From Paracholeplasma vituli (GTDB lineage Bacteria > Bacillota_I > Bacilli_A > Acholeplasmatales > UBA5453), in the NCBI RefSeq assembly GCF_025446935.1, contig NZ_JAOEGN010000008.1:1-64000 (forward strand): 64,000 nt of DNA, written 5' to 3'. The notes below the pieces were generated by a model. That model ran no database searches. It saw only the letters and a program-made list of their open reading frames with translations, and was not told the origin of the DNA. The position numbers and the translations under genes are program-made. Below are positions 26,079 through 35,166 of the stretch, piece after piece (within the stretch, counting starts at the first letter, position 1; every line of letters begins with the position of its first letter).

Positions 26079-27090
26079 TAATGAACATCGCGTCTCCGAA
26101 AGAAAAGAAACGGTAATTTTGTAATACTGCATCGTTGTAAGCTTTTAAAATAAGGTCACGGTTCGCGAATGCAGATACCAACATAATCAAAGTTGATTTT
26201 GGTAAATGAAAATTGGTGATTAGCGCACCAATGGTTTTAAATTGATACCCTGGGTAGATAAAAATTTTGGTTCTAAAGATACCTGGAACGAATTGATTGG
26301 TGTAATTACTTTCAAGCGTTCTTACAGTTGTTGTCCCAACCGCAACAATTCTTTTCTTTTGTTTCATCGCTTCATTGAGCCTTTTCGCAGCTGTTTCTGT
26401 AATTTGATAGACTTTTTCATGCATATGATGATCCATAACATCCTCTGTAGAAGTCGGTCTAAATGTGCCAAGACCTACATGAAGTGTGATTTCAATGATT
26501 TCAACGCCTTTAGCCTTTATCGCTTCTAATAGAGGCTTTGTGAAATGTAATCCTGCAGTTGGTGCTGCAGCACTCCCAATTTCTTTCGCATAAACCGTTT
26601 GATAGCGGTCTTTTTCTTCTAATCTTTCATGAATATATGGTGGTAGCGGCATTTCACCTAATTGATCCAAGACTTCATAAAAAATCCCTTCATAACTGAA
26701 GACAAAGGATTTGATACCTTCCTCTTTTTCTTTCACACAGGTTGCGATGAGTTTATCTTCACCAAAACTGATTTTAGTCCCGACTTTTACACGTCGGCCT
26801 GGTTTGACTAAAGCATCCCATGTGGATTCAGTTTGTTCTAATAACAATAACTCAATGACTGCGTTGGTATCGACTTTTGTTCCAATTAAGCGAGCAGGCA
26901 TAACCTTCGTGTTATTTAAGACCAAAACATCGTTTTCAGAAAGTTCATTGATAATGTGGTTAAACTGTGTATGAGTGAAAGACTCATAATGACGATCAAC
27001 AACAAAAAGGCGTGATTCATCACGACTTTTCAGTGGGTGTTGTGCAATTAAACGTTCAGGTAGTTCAAAATCAAAGTCTGCAGTTCTCAT
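26074..27090 (-). CDS. queA: S-adenosylmethionine:tRNA ribosyltransferase-isomerase (QueA)
   Basis: QueA transfers and isomerises the ribosyl group of SAM onto preQ1 in tRNA to make epoxyqueuosine. The 338-residue protein has the family start [16 protein letters not shown], then [25 protein letters not shown] and [17 protein letters not shown]. Its ATG overlaps the ruvB stop by one base. The order ruvA-ruvB-queA is that of Bacillus. No tgt follows here, because uppP faces it. Confidence 0.97.
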
Positions 27091-28100
27091 TATTCAAATA
27101 GTCCTTTTAAATATTTTTTACCCAGTGCTTGGTAACTCTTTTCCATAGCAATTCGGCCACGGGCAGTCCGCTTAATAAAACCTTCTTGTAGTAAATAAGG
27201 TTCGTACACGTCTTCAACGGTAGTAATTTCTTCACCGATTGTTGCAGCAATCGATTCAAGTCCAACCGGTCCGCCTGCAAATTTTTCAATTATAGCTTGG
27301 AGATAACGTTTATCGGTATGGTCAAGACCATTCGCAGAAATGCCTAATTTTTCTAGAGCATGGTGGGTAATGTCGAGTGTAATGATACCATCCCCAATAA
27401 TCTCAGCAAAGTCACGAACACGTCTGAATAATCGGTTCGCAATACGGGGTGTTCCGCGTGAGCGTTTCGCTAATTCCATCACAGCATCTGGTTTAATTTC
27501 GGTTTTATATACAGATGATGTGCGTTTAACAATGAGTGCAAGTTCATCTTGTGTATAAAAGGATAAGCGCATTACGACACCAAAACGATCGCGTAATGGT
27601 GCAGATAAATCTCCAAATCGGGTGGTTGCACCTACGAGTGTAAATGGTGGTAAATCAATGCGAATAGAACGGGATTGTTGGTCTTTTCCAATCACGATAT
27701 CAATCACGAAATCTTCCATGGCAGCGTACAATACTTCTTCGACCACTCTCGGAAGTCTGTGGATTTCATCAATAAATAGAACATCCCCTGGTTCAAGTGA
27801 GGTTAAAATCGCAGCGAGGTCACCACTACGTTCAATCGCAGGTCCTGAGGTTACTTTCATATTGACACCCATCTCATTCGCAACAATTTGCGCGAGTGTT
27901 GTTTTTCCTAAACCAGGAGGTCCATAAAACAAAATATGGTCCAAAGACTCATCACGCTTAAGCGCCGCTTTGATATAGACATCCAACATATCTTTGATAT
28001 CTTTTTGTCCTATATACTCATTCAGTTTTTGGGGGCGTAACGTTTGGTCTTCATCCTCTTTCATTGCTAATGAAGAGATGAGTCGTTCATCTGTTGTCAT
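27090..28100 (-). CDS. ruvB: Holliday junction branch-migration helicase RuvB
   Basis: RuvB is the AAA+ ATPase that drives branch migration with RuvA. In 336 residues it has Walker [10 protein letters not shown], Walker [10 protein letters not shown], sensor [19 protein letters not shown] and the C-terminal winged helix ending [17 protein letters not shown]. It is 7 bases after ruvA and overlaps queA. Confidence 0.98.
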
Positions 28101-28107
28101 AGAATAC

Positions 28108-28662
28108 CTACTTTATCATCATTTGTAATGCCTGTTTAATACGTTTTTCGATTGAAAGTGCGGGGTCTAACTTAGATAGCACTTTTCTGAGTTCAGAGGG
28201 CGAATACCCTAAAGCTATGAGCGCTTCTTGAACCTCATCTTTTTGGTTCACATTAATTTCTAAGGCTTTCTTATCGAGTTTACCCTTCAAATCTAAAATG
28301 ATTTGTTGAGCGCTCTTAGGGCCAATGCCTGGAAACTTCGTTAAGAATTTAACGTCTTGATTTTCAATAGCATATTCGATTTGCTCAGGTTTACCAGAAG
28401 CTAAAATCGAGAGTGCACTTTTAGGCCCGATTCCAGAGACACTAATAAGGTCTTGAAAAAGGCGTCTCGCTTCTTTGGTATCGAATCCGTACAATGTATC
28501 TTGATCTTCACGAACATGATGGTGAACATACATTTTAACCGATTCACCTAAAGTATAAATATATGGGTTTGGAGCAATAATTAAATACCCTACACCTTGA
28601 TTATCCACAACCACGTTGGTAGGTTCAATTTCTGTGATGGTTCCAACTATATATGCATACAT
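28108..28662 (-). CDS. ruvA: Holliday junction DNA helicase subunit RuvA
   Basis: RuvA binds the four-way junction and recruits RuvB. The 184-residue protein has the N-terminal OB domain ([21 protein letters not shown]), the two helix-hairpin-helix motifs ([14 protein letters not shown] and [14 protein letters not shown]) and the short C-terminal RuvB-binding domain ([17 protein letters not shown]). A GAGGTGA site lies before the ATG. It is slightly shorter than the usual 190-205 residues, mainly in the linker. Confidence 0.97.
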
Positions 28663-28709: not shown

Positions 28710-29300
28710 TTACTGGCGTTTTTCTAGTACAATCCGTGATTTATAATCACTATAAATGATCGTAAGCCCTAATAATTTAGATAGGTATTCAAATGACACA
28801 AATTGATAAAAACATACGTGGGTAATATCACGAACATACCACCACGATGGCACTTTATCTAATTCAGGATAAAATTGTGTTTGGATAAGGAGTCTTCCCC
28901 CCGGTTTAAGTAATTCAGTTAGACGTTTAAACTCCGGGATTGGATCTTTAAAGTGTTCCACCACTTCAATGCATATAATTGTGTCGTAGGTTTGAGTTAA
29001 AAGCTTTTGATCATTATGATAGTATAAATCAAATCCAAAAAGGCCTGGAATAAAGTGCTTTTGAATAAGTCCTTCACCACAACCATAATCGAGAATGGTT
29101 CCTTCATGCATATATATACCGATGAACTCATCAAAAATACGTTTATGATATTCAATATATTTGAAGTCATCAGCATCATTATTGTGTGTATCATAGCGTT
29201 TCTTCGCTTCATCGTCCGAAACCCAGTGTTTTAAATCTTTATGCAATATTTGAGTTTCAGGATCGAGATAAAATTGTAAGGGTGTTGTTTTTTTAATCAT
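28710..29300 (-). CDS. Class I SAM-dependent methyltransferase, substrate unknown
   Basis: The 196-residue protein has the Rossmann methyltransferase signature: ILDYGCGEG (SAM motif I) near residue 70, an acidic FGFDLYY segment, TIICIEVVEHFKDP (motif for IV) and LLKPGGRLLIQTQ. A His/Trp-rich part (PSWWYVRDITHVCFYQ) follows the core. Such enzymes often act on small molecules or lipids; none is suggested by the neighbours ruvA and the divergent coiled-coil gene. It has its own extended -10 promoter. Confidence 0.85.
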   Translation of the reverse strand: MIKKTTPLQFYLDPETQILHKDLKHWVSDDEAKKRYDTHNNDADDFKYIEYHKRIFDEFIGIYMHEGTILDYGCGEGLIQKHFIPGLFGFDLYYHNDQKLLTQTYDTIICIEVVEHFKDPIPEFKRLTELLKPGGRLLIQTQFYPELDKVPSWWYVRDITHVCFYQFVSFEYLSKLLGLTIIYSDYKSRIVLEKRQ

Positions 29301-29331: not shown

Positions 29332-29347
29332 AATCACTGCTTTATTA

Positions 29348-29356
29348 TGGTATAAT
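29348..29356 (+). promoter_or_regulatory. Extended -10 promoter of the giant coiled-coil gene
   Basis: TGG-TATAAT (TATAAT 29351-29356) lies 24 bases before the TTG start codon at 29381. Confidence 0.65.
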
Positions 29357-29380
29357 AAACAAGAATCAGAGGTGGTTTAT

Positions 29381-32300
29381 TTGATTCAAATAAACGCTAA
29401 AAATTACGAATCTAAACAAAAAGAACGTTTCGATACGCTTTTTCGTCGTGTCTTAACGGCTTACGCAATTACCAACGAAACCGCTCACCAATTAAAATCT
29501 ACACGCGTTTCTCTTGAAAGTTTACATGACCAAATTCAAGAACTGAATCGTCAATACGAGAACTCCCTCATTCGCTATACCAAAGATTATTCCAACCAGC
29601 TCTCTGATATCAACCGTAAACACCAAGAATCACTCCATGAACTCGACGAAAACTACGCACAATCCTTAAAACACTTCAAACAAACCATAGTGGATGAAAA
29701 CATCCAAGCTAACAAAAAATTGACTGAAATTCATATAAACTTTCAACGTCAAACCCAACAGACCAATGTCCATATCTACCGTGCGCTTTTAGATATGAAA
29801 CAACAACACCAAGCCATCGATTTTGAATATGATCAAGCTAAAACAGCTTACCAAAAATCGATTGATGAAATCGAAGTAGCCAAAATCCAAAAATTAAAAG
29901 ATATCGATAGTGTGTATGAAAACGAATTAAAGGACAATAAAGCAGCTGACCAAGCCCGTTTGGCACGTTTAAGTTCTGAAAATCAACGTATTCAATCGAA
30001 GCGATCAATAGAACAAACTGATTACGAGGAATCCATTCTTAAAATCAAAACCATATTCAATCGTGTGACTATTAAGTTCAATCAAAAAATTCGGGACATT
30101 CAAAAAAAATACCAGTCCATTATGGGCCAACAAGAAGCGAGTATCCAAAAGGAAATTGATCAGATTCAAGAACTCATGGATGGTTTAAAAGTCACTTTTC
30201 AAGAACAAGAACGATCTACAAGAGATGAATTCGAATTAGAATTAATTAAATATGACAAGCGTTTTGATCAGCTTAAAATTAATTATGAAAGCAATAAAGA
30301 TCAAATCGTTAGGAACTACTCTCGCGACATCACTGTCTCCAATTCTCGTCTTGCACATCAAAAGGAATTACTGAATCAACAAATTATCGAACTTGAAAAA
30401 CATACTAAACAAAGACGGTTAGATTTATCGGTTGAAGACCCAGATTATCGTGAAAAAATGGCGAATATTAACAAGAATTACATTAAAGATTATAACAATC
30501 TCGAACATCAAGCCAAAATCGCGATGCGTGACACAGCAAAACAAAACCTCGAACGAAAGAAACGTTATCAACAAGAACTACTTACCCATGAGTTTGAATA
30601 CATTCGTAATCAGGAAATCTATCGACTCAAGCGTCTATTTTCTGAACGTCACAAGGACCAAGCTCTCAAGCAACATAAATATGCTTTTGATAAAGAGTGG
30701 CTCATACTATCGAACCAAAACAAACTCTTAGAAAAACGCTTATTCATTGAAAACCAAATACTTCGTGAAAAACAGGGTCTTGAAATATATCCTTACGAAG
30801 CGATGGTACTTCTGGCTCGTGAAATTCATGACGCAGAAACCAATTATCGGACATTAGAAAATAACCATTACCGTCAACTGTTCAGCCTTAAAGAACGGAA
30901 ATTAACTTACCTATCAACAATTGATGAGAATACCATCAAACATGAAAAGAATAAAATCATACAAAAACACGAGTTTGATATCAAGCGCACCAACGTGGTC
31001 GCTTATTTAGACATGGAATATGCCAAAAATGAACTTTCTGGTAAAAAAATCATCTTAGAGGAACAAAAGAAATCGCACGAATTACACTATCAAAAACGGG
31101 AAAAGTTCTACTTGTTTGATCAAGACAAAGCGAAAGAAATTCGCATGTTTGATCAAAAGATGATTTCATTTTCCCAAAAGCTTCTAGGACAAATCGTTGA
31201 GGTACAAGAATCTAAAGCACTCATTGAATACGATTCCCATGTTGAACTTGAAAAAAGCCGTTATACGAAGGAAATTGGTATCAGAAAAGCCAAACGAATC
31301 CTAGATACATCCATGAATGAAACCCAGCGTCAAAAACGCTTATTTGACATCTATTTTCAAATGATCTTAGTCATACAAAATGAATTTGAAAACATCTTAT
31401 TATTGTTAAGAGATATCTACCAAACCTCTTCTATTCAACAATGGCGTGCTTCACTTTCATATATTCATGAAATCCTTCAAGAACAAACTGCATTAAAATC
31501 GGATATTATTAAGAAACTAGAATCGGAAACCACCGCCTACTACCAAGAAAAAATCAATGAATTAACCGCTTTTAAATACATGAACTTAAAAGAGTCTATC
31601 ATAAGCGATTATGAGTCTGAGCACAAACTGTATGTCGAACAGATTTCGATGCTCGATGAGCAACTTAAATCCTTACGATCTAAAGGGGCTGATTTGTTTC
31701 AACAAATTGCTCATCTTCAAAATGAAAACGCAAATATCGAAGCGACTAAAGACTTAATCAACGAGCAAATATCTAAGTTAACGACGCGTTTATTGAATAA
31801 ACAACAACGTAAAACGGCACGAAATTTAAAGAATCAAATTTCACAACTGAATAAAGAAATTAATAAGAATAACGATCTCATCAAACACATTAAAGGTCAA
31901 ATTCGTCAAACCAACAAAGAAATGCTTAGTTTAGACAAGAATCATAAACCGCTTGAGCTTATGTTGGTAAAAATTGAAAAGAATCGTGCTTTGCGAGAAA
32001 AGAATCTCGACCGTTCTCAATATGAAGAAGGTCGTGTATACTACGACTCCATCGACGCTATTGAGGCACTGACTAAACTCATTCACGCTAATAATGAGTC
32101 TCTTTTATCAGAAACAAAGGCACTTCTGACTGAACTCGATCGTGATGTTATTCTAGAAAAATCATTCTCAAGTAACTATATTTATTTAACTAAGAAAGCG
32201 ATTAAAACCCGTACGAAATTCTTAGAGTTTCACAAACAAGGTATCGAACTTTGTGATCAACAATTCATCCAAATCCGTAATGAACAACATCGTATTATGA

Positions 32301-33037
32301 GGGAATATGAGAATGCGTTTAGTTTAACCAAACACAACATCGATCATACATTGAATAAGCGAACCCAAAAAATGGAAGAAAAAATCAATGAGTTAGAAAA
32401 GTACCGTATCGCCTTTACACGTGTCCAAAAACGTCAACTCGAGGCTCAAATACGATCCATTGACCAAGCCATGAAACACTTTGATGAACAACATCAAGAT
32501 CAGGTTGCATTAGGACAACAATCGCTTAATAATGCGATTGAAAGACGTGATTCCTTATTACAAGCAACGAAACTTAACACTGAGAATGTAATTGCTGATC
32601 TTGAAATTAAATACAAGACAGCTAACGCTGCCATTGACAGTGAAAATGCCATTGCATATAAAGATTTGTCTAGAAAGATTTCATCCATCGATAGTGAAAT
32701 CAAACAAGCTACCTTAGTCTTTGATGAAAAGATCGCTTTTTACGGTGAAAAGGATAAAGCTGCAAGAACGCGTATATCCGATAATTTAAACCAAAGTCGT
32801 TCAAAATCTAATCGTAAGATTGTTCAATTTCAACTTGAGATTGAAATGCTTAAACTTCAAATGAAACGTCAGGCGAAGCGGGCTGAGGTACTATATACCA
32901 AAAAGATGAACAGGTTGTCATTAAGAGAACGTCTTGCACAATACCCAATACGATTTGAAACATCGAAAACGATTCGTCAACGTAAAACCTTGGCTAAACG
33001 CACTTGGTTACATCGAAACAATCAAATGAAGCAGTAA
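29381..33037 (+). CDS. Giant coiled-coil protein (about 1,218 residues), function unknown
   Basis: TTG at 29381 (LIQINAKNYES) lies 5 bases after AGAGGTGG and is preferred over GTG at 29372. The protein is rich in Gln, Lys, Glu and Asn and is predicted to be coiled coil over nearly its whole length. It has no signal peptide, membrane segment, Walker A motif or hinge, so it is not an SMC or MukB protein. Short non-heptad stretches (YPYEAMVLLAREIHDAE near 475; IYFQMILVIQNEFENILLLLRDIYQ near 660-690) may be kinks or binding sites. The C-terminus is strongly basic (RQRKTLAKRTWLHRNNQMK). It stands alone between obg/ruvA block genes. Inference: a cytoskeletal or scaffold protein, as found in other wall-poor bacteria. 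Confidence 0.8.
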   Translation: MIQINAKNYESKQKERFDTLFRRVLTAYAITNETAHQLKSTRVSLESLHDQIQELNRQYENSLIRYTKDYSNQLSDINRKHQESLHELDENYAQSLKHFKQTIVDENIQANKKLTEIHINFQRQTQQTNVHIYRALLDMKQQHQAIDFEYDQAKTAYQKSIDEIEVAKIQKLKDIDSVYENELKDNKAADQARLARLSSENQRIQSKRSIEQTDYEESILKIKTIFNRVTIKFNQKIRDIQKKYQSIMGQQEASIQKEIDQIQELMDGLKVTFQEQERSTRDEFELELIKYDKRFDQLKINYESNKDQIVRNYSRDITVSNSRLAHQKELLNQQIIELEKHTKQRRLDLSVEDPDYREKMANINKNYIKDYNNLEHQAKIAMRDTAKQNLERKKRYQQELLTHEFEYIRNQEIYRLKRLFSERHKDQALKQHKYAFDKEWLILSNQNKLLEKRLFIENQILREKQGLEIYPYEAMVLLAREIHDAETNYRTLENNHYRQLFSLKERKLTYLSTIDENTIKHEKNKIIQKHEFDIKRTNVVAYLDMEYAKNELSGKKIILEEQKKSHELHYQKREKFYLFDQDKAKEIRMFDQKMISFSQKLLGQIVEVQESKALIEYDSHVELEKSRYTKEIGIRKAKRILDTSMNETQRQKRLFDIYFQMILVIQNEFENILLLLRDIYQTSSIQQWRASLSYIHEILQEQTALKSDIIKKLESETTAYYQEKINELTAFKYMNLKESIISDYESEHKLYVEQISMLDEQLKSLRSKGADLFQQIAHLQNENANIEATKDLINEQISKLTTRLLNKQQRKTARNLKNQISQLNKEINKNNDLIKHIKGQIRQTNKEMLSLDKNHKPLELMLVKIEKNRALREKNLDRSQYEEGRVYYDSIDAIEALTKLIHANNESLLSETKALLTELDRDVILEKSFSSNYIYLTKKAIKTRTKFLEFHKQGIELCDQQFIQIRNEQHRIMREYENAFSLTKHNIDHTLNKRTQKMEEKINELEKYRIAFTRVQKRQLEAQIRSIDQAMKHFDEQHQDQVALGQQSLNNAIERRDSLLQATKLNTENVIADLEIKYKTANAAIDSENAIAYKDLSRKISSIDSEIKQATLVFDEKIAFYGEKDKAARTRISDNLNQSRSKSNRKIVQFQLEIEMLKLQMKRQAKRAEVLYTKKMNRLSLRERLAQYPIRFETSKTIRQRKTLAKRTWLHRNNQMKQ

Positions 33038-33060
33038 AAAAACCCATCATGGGTTTTTTT
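33036..33060. terminator. Bidirectional terminator
   Basis: A run of A, ACCCA, three bases, TGGGT and a run of T form a symmetric hairpin, closing both the coiled-coil gene and the convergent hydrolase gene. Confidence 0.85.
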
Positions 33061-33897: not shown

Positions 33898-35166
33898 TTA
33901 ATCAGTAAATTCAAATTCGTATTCAAAGACTCTAACGTTATCTCCGGATTTGACTCCTGCTTTTCGTAATGCTTCGTCAACCCCGTAACTTCGTAGTTGT
34001 CTCGCAAAACGCTTAACGTTTTCTTCTTTGGTAAAATCAGTTCTCATGAATAAGCGATATAACCCTTCACCTTTAACCACATATACACCATCACTGGCCT
34101 TTTCAATGGTAAAGAACGCTTCTTCTTTGTTTTTGATGTAGTTTTTATGAACTTCACCAATTTCAAATTTAGGGGTTGTTTCTACCAATTCCATCGTACG
34201 ATAAATAAGTTCTTTTAAACCTTGTTTAGTCACAGATGAGATTGGATAGACTTCATAGGAATCACCGATTTGTTCTTTAAACTTTTCTAGATTAGCCCAT
34301 GCATTCGGTAAGTCCATTTTGGACGCCGCAATGATCATTGGACGTTTGAGTAAATCATAATTATAGGATTCGAGTTCCTTGTTGATTTTTAAGAAATCTT
34401 CATATGGATTTTTTTCTTCAAGACCATCCATTTCAACAACGTGAATAATGACACGGCAACGTTCGATGTGTTTTAAGAATTGAATACCTAACCCAGCACC
34501 TAACGACGCGCCTTCAATTAAACCTGGTAGATCGGCCATAACAAAACTTTGATTTTCTCCTACATAGACTAAGCCTAAATGCGGTTCTAATGTTGTAAAG
34601 TGGTATTCAGCAATCTTCGGTTTAGCACGAGAAACGGAAGAAATCAGTGTGGATTTACCAACGGAAGGATAACCAACCAAACCAACATCGGCGAGTACTT
34701 TTAACTCTACACGAAGGTTTTTGGCTTCACCAAGATCCCCTTTTTCACAAATTTCTGGAGCCGGGTTACGATGGGTTGCGAACGCTTCATTACCGCGTCC
34801 ACCACGGCCACCTTTAGCAAGCAATAGAGTTTGACCGTGCATGGTCAAATCACCAATCAACACATTGGTATCTTGGTCGAATACCATCGTTCCGACCGGC
34901 ACTCTAAAATAGGTATGTTCGGCATTACGTCCGTTTTGGGATTTATTTAAACCCGATGTCCCGTCTTTAGCAGTCAGGTGCTTATTAAATGATAAATCTA
35001 ATAACGTTGATATACCTTCATCAGCGACAAAATAGACATCCCCACCAGCACCGCCAGACCCACCAGCCGGGCCTCCATACTCAACATATTTTTCACGGCG
35101 AAAAGCTACGATACCATCGCCGCCTCTGCCACCTTTTACTTTGATAAATACTTCATCTTTAAACAT
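33898..35166 (-). CDS. obg: Ribosome assembly GTPase Obg (CgtA)
   Basis: Obg is an essential GTPase that joins the large subunit during assembly. The 422-residue protein has all three domains: the glycine-rich Obg fold (1-157, with GGRGGDGIVAFRREKYVEYGG), the GTPase domain with G1 GYPSVGKST, switch AEYHFTTLEPHLG, G3 DLPGLIEG and G4 AASKMDLP, and the C-terminal OCT domain (about 345-422). It follows rpmA after a hairpin, in the Bacillota order rplU-prp-rpmA-obg. Confidence 0.98.
   Translation of the reverse strand: MFKDEVFIKVKGGRGGDGIVAFRREKYVEYGGPAGGSGGAGGDVYFVADEGISTLLDLSFNKHLTAKDGTSGLNKSQNGRNAEHTYFRVPVGTMVFDQDTNVLIGDLTMHGQTLLLAKGGRGGRGNEAFATHRNPAPEICEKGDLGEAKNLRVELKVLADVGLVGYPSVGKSTLISSVSRAKPKIAEYHFTTLEPHLGLVYVGENQSFVMADLPGLIEGASLGAGLGIQFLKHIERCRVIIHVVEMDGLEEKNPYEDFLKINKELESYNYDLLKRPMIIAASKMDLPNAWANLEKFKEQIGDSYEVYPISSVTKQGLKELIYRTMELVETTPKFEIGEVHKNYIKNKEEAFFTIEKASDGVYVVKGEGLYRLFMRTDFTKEENVKRFARQLRSYGVDEALRKAGVKSGDNVRVFEYEFEFTD

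Follow-up and report, generated by a model that had tools for sequence, protein, structure and literature searches.

To our knowledge, how free-living wall-less bacteria, having neither peptidoglycan nor MreB, maintain their shape and size is an open question outside Spiroplasma and Mycoplasma pneumoniae. The question is raised here by a single gene between ruvA and obg in the window (the whole stretch of 64,000 nucleotides that was analysed), the product of which is a giant, highly charged helical protein of 1,218 residues, referred to below as the rod protein. In the first-pass annotation it was described as a filament or scaffold that could contribute to cell shape or to chromosome organisation. 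The evidence on what the protein is, how old it is and what it may do is considered in turn, with bacterial families of the class given by our own handles (f1, f2 and so on).

The gene and its product

The mechanical ORF at the locus opens at GTG 29372; the ribosome-binding site AGAGGTGG (29368-29375) overlaps that GTG, and TTG 29381 is therefore the likely start (Table 1). The earlier claim that the gene has its own promoter is borne out by the extended -10 element TATGGTATAAT and by the upstream retention of the exact motif TATGNTATAAT in 38 of 76 homologues, as against 0.26% of shuffled sequences. At its other end lies the perfect inverted repeat AAAAAAACCCATCATGGGTTTTTTT, a putative terminator for both the rod gene and the convergent hydrolase gene. 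The G+C content of the gene (0.35; 0.33 at third positions) resembles that of its near neighbours, and therefore gives no sign of recent transfer. Between ruvA and the rod gene lies a methyltransferase gene (28710-29300 of the window, minus strand), which is absent from the f4 loci seen; some genomes of f3 and f1 have relatives of it at this position.

Table 1. Features of the rod gene and its surroundings (window coordinates).
Feature	Coordinates	Strand	Remarks
ruvB	27090-28100	-	Same flank as ruvA
ruvA	28108..28662	-	With ruvB; the rod gene almost always diverges from this flank
Extended -10 promoter TATGGTATAAT	29346..29356	+	Sequence, and conservation of TATGNTATAAT
Ribosome-binding site AGAGGTGG, short 5' leader	29368..29375	+	Sequence
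Giant rod protein gene	29381..33037	+	1,218 aa, TTG start, TAA stop
N-terminal straight arm, about residues 46-332	29516..30376	+	Stripe period 3.62, constant phase
Central region, about residues 366-606	30476..31198	+	AlphaFold helix, no amphipathic periodicity
Canonical heptad coiled-coil stretch, about residues 606-858	31196..31954	+	Period 3.485
C-terminal straight arm, about residues 878-1217	32012..33031	+	Period 3.63
Basic tail, last 60 residues, net +15	32855..33034	+	Positive sign kept across the order
Terminator-like perfect inverted repeat AAAAAAACCCATCATGGGTTTTTTT	33036..33060	.	Sequence; common to rod gene and convergent hydrolase gene
obg	33898..35166	-	Borders the site on its other side in most of the order

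Among the 40 ORFs of at least 250 aa in the window, the rod protein is an outlier in composition, with 1.3% Gly+Pro (the next lowest has 7.5%) and 42% EKQRD; in all it contains 4 Pro, 12 Gly and 1 Cys. It was said to carry no ATPase, membrane or surface signal, and this description holds. The protein has no Walker A motif, of which a single chance match occurs among 103 rod-family proteins, and no transmembrane-like stretch (maximum KD19 1.19, with a charged N-terminus), KD19 exceeding 1.6 in 6 of the 103 relatives, three times near the start and three times internally; the LPxTG sorting motif occurs in 0 of 103. The C-terminus, on the other hand, is very basic, as the same annotation had it, with a net charge of +18 over the last 80 residues, and the +15 of the last 60 compares with a mean of +9.6 and a minimum of +2 among 65 distinct proteins of the order.

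Searches of family libraries do not place the protein. Pfam, NCBIfam, PHROG and PADLOC give no family match, the only match in a PDB sequence search (E=0.88) is not significant, the SMC profile TIGR02168 does not match, and the DivIVA-like motif GYDxxEVD is found in 0 of 103 proteins, with no Pfam match to DivIVA. Homology to a phage or secreted protein family, named at first pass as a result that would speak against a cellular scaffold, was looked for in Pfam, NCBIfam and PHROG with no such match; as regards phage tail or tape-measure proteins in particular, the gene context is one of housekeeping genes throughout the order. Two kinds of weak match were rejected: one in Peloplasma to SMC_prok_B (20.9 bits against a cut-off of 567), as coil noise, and those of distant family members to Pfam, as below cut-off. 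A literature search of open-access papers found no description of the protein.

An order-wide family at one site

A protein search of 60 relatives and of the window's own genome finds the rod in 15 genomes, in all of them at the same site. In the order Acholeplasmatales a profile search gives a match for 54 of the 160 genomes. Where no profile match was obtained the ruvB locus was inspected directly, and the loci of f4 outliers, f3, f2 and f5 contain a giant ORF, low in Gly and Pro and highly charged. From the order 65 distinct full-length single rod proteins of 1,002-1,255 aa were collected, the gene being nearly always divergent from ruvAB and usually adjoining obg; its presence in relatives between ruvA and obg, suggested earlier as a check, is seen across the order. 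The carriers, as named by a RuvA-anchored genome scan, include A. laidlawii, A. oculi, Peloplasma aerotolerans, strain zrk7 and Anaeroplasma-type MAGs, among others.

With an HMM built from f1 and core f4, f1/f4 members score from 30 to over 1,400 bits and reversed copies score negatively; most f4 outliers reach 30-357 bits with collinear ends, and the f4 outliers L079 and L103 receive no score. When the f1/f4 and f3 profiles are compared with each other, the score is 294 (reversed control 60) across 1,130 columns in collinear order, such that the rods of f1/f4 and f3 form one family, collinear across their whole length. The comparison of f3 with f2 scores 86 (reversed control 19), and the f5 rod is joined to the family by synteny and composition only. 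Profiles, synteny and structure models find a rod family that is ancient, order-wide, vertically inherited and unnamed. Family libraries miss it, since from one family to the next the sequence has diverged past the point of recognition, and only synteny and periodicity taken together bring it to light.

Some loci depart from the general pattern. Among the complete ruvB loci seen in the order, a single one has no giant rod at this position, that of an f3 genome (G059, L097), in which a charged, Gly/Pro-poor ORF of 484 aa lies about 8 kb from ruvA. Phytoplasma-like genomes (genus g20) have no convincing rod match and no true RuvB. In genome G046 a 1,002-aa ORF is preceded, in shifted frames, by the initial part of the rod gene (L080:10338-10850), which reflects either a broken gene or an assembly error. 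In genera g2-g4 of the window's family a FGGY-type sugar kinase gene adjoins the rod gene (L024:6419-7867, for which the identity was searched, and L025:9207-10655); it is absent in the window's genus.

Constraint on length and register

Lack of conservation would, according to the first-pass annotation, have counted against the scaffold, and the gene is instead kept under purifying selection, with dN/dS of 0.04 and 0.07 in close pairs. What is conserved is of an unusual kind. An alignment of sixteen rods (1,202-1,203 aa; four f4 genera) spans 1,203 columns and contains 0-1 gap, with identity as low as 26.9% in the most divergent pair, and the window protein aligns with the 1,203-aa f4 members at 13-16% identity with about 24 gap columns. 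From these alignments the sequence appears nearly free to drift, with length and helix phase held, an extreme form of evolution in which the register is frozen over 1,200 residues. In eukaryotic rods, too, the register is set by lateral assembly, and for this reason the sequence drifts but takes up hardly any indels; near-zero gaps down to 26.9% identity are expected if lateral assembly likewise fixes the register of the rod protein. SMC is not usable as an indel control, since these genomes do not have it.

A fixed length with a near-free sequence is also what a spacer needs, that is, a membrane- or division-associated ruler which would keep its partners a set distance apart, at the pole or the division site for instance, and would not be a bulk skeleton. 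The N-terminus and the conserved patches of the central region could then be docking sites and the basic tail could bind the membrane. This reading is, however, rather unlikely, given that no partner gene is linked to the rod gene, its neighbours being housekeeping genes, and that f16 and f24 have two rods of unequal length (see below).

Helix periodicity and structure models

The family-averaged hydrophobic profile has its global peak at 3.62 residues, with a power of 35-44 against a shuffle maximum of 7.5, and a stripe of period 3.62-3.63 recurs in families without detectable sequence similarity. By alignment columns, the period is 3.62 over 0-380, absent over 390-590, 3.485 (heptad) over 600-840 and 3.63 over 840-1203, and the phase at 3.625 is constant across columns 45-330 and 990-1190. 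The description of the protein as coiled coil nearly throughout stands, therefore, as regards a long helical rod with a heptad stretch, but not for the arms, which are predicted to be straight and have a non-heptad stripe, nor for the central region, which has conserved patches (Pro471 ... LLAREIHDAETNYR) in place of amphipathic periodicity.

Each turn of an undistorted alpha-helix takes 3.63 residues (PMC9858780). The arm stripe matches this pitch, and the arms should therefore be straight, without supercoil; such near-straight periodicity spans hundreds of residues in the rod family. The core of the arms consists of Leu, Ile, Val, Phe and Tyr with only 2-3% Ala, and dimeric hendecad coils need small core residues (PMC9858780), such that association as a bundle of more than two helices is the likelier arrangement, judged from the sequence. 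Two other interpretations of the stripe were rejected. A repeat unit of 29 residues, the top repeat length in most families, is an alias of the 8/29 frequency, as are the harmonics seen at 2.23, 5.8 and 9.7, so that the claim is confined to a stripe of about 3.625. An amphipathic helix lying on the membrane does not fit the arms, the hydrophobic face of which covers only about 120 degrees with both charges on its flanks.

In the AlphaFold model of the window protein (mean pLDDT 79, pTM 0.41) residues 6 to 1199 are helical apart from short breaks, and the helix map and confidence dips agree with those of the A. laidlawii homologue, which is encoded next to ruvAB, has 1,182 aa and is only 12% identical. 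The monomer is folded back at loops, for example at 173-193, which, if real, would give a compact bundle and not a long rod. Indeed, a multi-helix bundle of equal-length hairpins would accord with the similar helix lengths within pairs, 148/155 and 118/115 in the window protein and 136/155 and 104/100 in the A. laidlawii model, and with the low-confidence turns in both. The phase of the stripe, however, runs on unchanged through the predicted loop 173-193, which for this reason is probably no true hairpin, and across about residue 1080; moreover, the pTM is only 0.41, and spurious bending of long coils is a known fault of AlphaFold (PMC11676326). The compact bundle is very unlikely.

Tandem rods and the age of the junction

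In the class outside the order, 56 ruvB loci were inspected, and two giant tandem ORFs divergent from ruvB occur in f16, f23 and f24, which are Izemoplasma-like and include strain zrk2 (loci L112-L121, L150 and L158). The first, CC1, is about 1,113-1,200 aa long and has the periodicity layout of the order's rod; the second, CC2, is about 925-1,059 aa long and has a basic tail and a well conserved centre. The last 60 residues have a mean net charge of +10.1 in CC2 and -4.0 in CC1. Both profiles are matched in sampled f16 and f24 genomes, CC1 not being found in one f16 genome (G241), and neither has a convincing match elsewhere in the class. In hhalign comparisons with the order's rod, f16 CC1 scores 66 against 59 reversed and pooled CC1 scores 101 against 61, such that homology of sequence is no more than suggestive; the common site and period architecture speak for it.

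In the f16, f23 and f24 genomes ruvA adjoins obg at another place than the ruvB rods, and ruvB, ruvA and obg are close neighbours in f11, f13, f17, f21 and most f22 loci. The rod gene therefore sits in an old junction. Its earlier description as inserted between obg and ruvA is thus correct only in deep time and does not hold as an insertion in this lineage, the gene being at the site order-wide. In the walled family f19, coiled-coil proteins of 608-614 aa without a family match adjoin ffh and ruvA (L144:9679-11505, L145:10394-12238); they were rejected as precursors of the rod, their profile signal not being clearly above the reversed control. An f7 genome contains a 1,279-aa Cas13a near ruvA (L123:7197-11036, minus strand; PADLOC E=6e-49).

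Wall, MreB and SMC

Searches for SEDS (FtsW/RodA), MreB and SMC covered a sample in which f2 and f5 were not included. SEDS was not found in sampled genomes of f1, f3, f4, f16, f23 and f24, and is present in f7, f9, f19 and most other families sampled; f7, f9 and f19, walled sisters, have no giant rod at this site. Among the carriers, Peloplasma grows as wall-less cocci of 0.32-0.65 µm (PMC11122141), and Izemoplasma relatives are also wall-less (PMC8397711). The supposition that the cell has no MreB agrees with the absence of any match at E<=1e-20 in the window's genome, and sampled f1, f3, f4, f23 and f24 give no convincing match; of the matches near E=1e-21, those inspected lie in frames of about 600 aa, about as long as DnaK. 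In f16, by contrast, the majority of genomes have 3-4 MreBs.

SMC (TIGR02168) was found neither in the window's genome nor in sampled f1, f3, f4, f16 and f24, nor in sampled f7, f9, f11, f19 and f21; it was found in Mycoplasmatales and many walled families. It is missing from a whole branch of the class, walled families included, and independently from f11/f21, which poses the question of what organises these chromosomes. A possible answer is the rod protein itself, acting as a chromosome organiser whose headless, SMC-like arms would bind or bridge DNA through a tail that is basic throughout the order. The top Foldseek matches of both models are MukB, condensin, Smc5/6 and JetC, which would suit such a role, but with TM-scores of at most 0.13 they are read as probably reflecting long coils in general. 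Furthermore, the family has no ATPase head and no clearly recognisable hinge; the centre (about 366-606), considered as a possible hinge, is conserved, non-periodic and modelled as helix. The loss of SMC is also older and wider than the rod, extending to f7, f9, f19 and f11/f21, which have no rod at ruvB. Chromosome organisation is an unlikely function but, with SMC missing, a serious rival to the structural reading given below.

In a RuvB/RuvA/Obg tree (FastTree), f7, f9+f19, f16+f24 and f1-f5 fall on one branch, with some deep supports low; the placement of f23 inside f4, on a long branch, was not trusted. The simplest history is that SMC was lost first, after which SEDS was lost and the giant rod appeared, a single event that affords no statistics.

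A possible internal skeleton

The best explanation of the protein, held with about as much belief as doubt, is a cytoplasmic structural rod that is a candidate internal skeleton. Each chain would be helical almost without interruption over its roughly 1,200 residues, with the conserved central region and the heptad stretch connecting two straight, unsupercoiled arms; at 0.15 nm per residue, each arm would measure some 43-51 nm. Chains would lie side by side with their register fixed, in bundles that probably comprise more than two helices, and could be joined laterally into struts or filaments, tethered by the basic tail to the anionic membrane (or to DNA). That the chains oligomerise, form filaments, are tethered and help to shape the cell or to support it mechanically is what we infer from the order-wide occurrence at one site, the fixed length and register, the purifying selection, the basic tail, the sharp stripe and the common map of helices and breaks at 12% identity. 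The family would have become fixed at about the time when the lineage lost its wall, commensurate with carriers that are wall-less cocci, in families where SEDS is absent from the sample, and with walled sisters that have no rod at the site.

Other observations sit less easily with a structural rod. The association with wall loss goes back to a possibly single origin and so carries no statistical weight. Since the SEDS-less Mycoplasmatales f8/f18 and f11 have no detected rod, and phytoplasmas have none, the rod is not indispensable to life without a wall; it is also missing from the site in one f3 genome, and most f16 genomes keep MreB as well. Low conservation of sequence is, besides, odd for a scaffold with many partners. 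It is accordingly a tentative and somewhat doubtful proposal that the skeleton arose around wall loss in the ancestor that Acholeplasmatales shares with the Izemoplasma-like families, with a straight, register-locked rod replacing the support of peptidoglycan, mostly without MreB. The structural rod is directly testable, as cultured species (A. laidlawii, A. oculi, Peloplasma aerotolerans) have the gene.

Comparison with known systems

HMW2 of Mycoplasma pneumoniae, part of its terminal-organelle cytoskeleton, is, like the rod protein, a very long coiled-coil protein of a wall-less bacterium, with 1,257 of its 1,818 residues predicted as coiled coil and its molecules parallel in the organelle plates (PMC4669176). 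By these descriptions it is set apart from the rod by its different length and by a lineage that lost its wall independently (PMC7203096); it belongs to a polar attachment organelle, whereas the neighbours of the rod are ruvAB and obg, and family libraries give no link between the two. Scy/FilP of Streptomyces, of the DivIVA-like superfamily and with a cell-division or cytoskeletal role, is likewise a near-straight, non-heptad rod of more than 1,000 residues (PMC9858780), but its hendecad dimers are rich in Ala, of which the rod core has little, and GYDxxEVD is not found in the rod family. The arms of SMC, MukB and JetC resemble the rod in a length of about 1,200 residues, in long helical arms and in leading the Foldseek matches; they differ in having an ATPase head and a recognisable hinge, and the arms of the rod are not heptad. 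The myosin rod, tropomyosin and lamins, to which the rod is not homologous, have its fixed register; they are mainly heptad, left-handed coils, in contrast to the straight arms, of period 3.62-3.63, of the rod protein.
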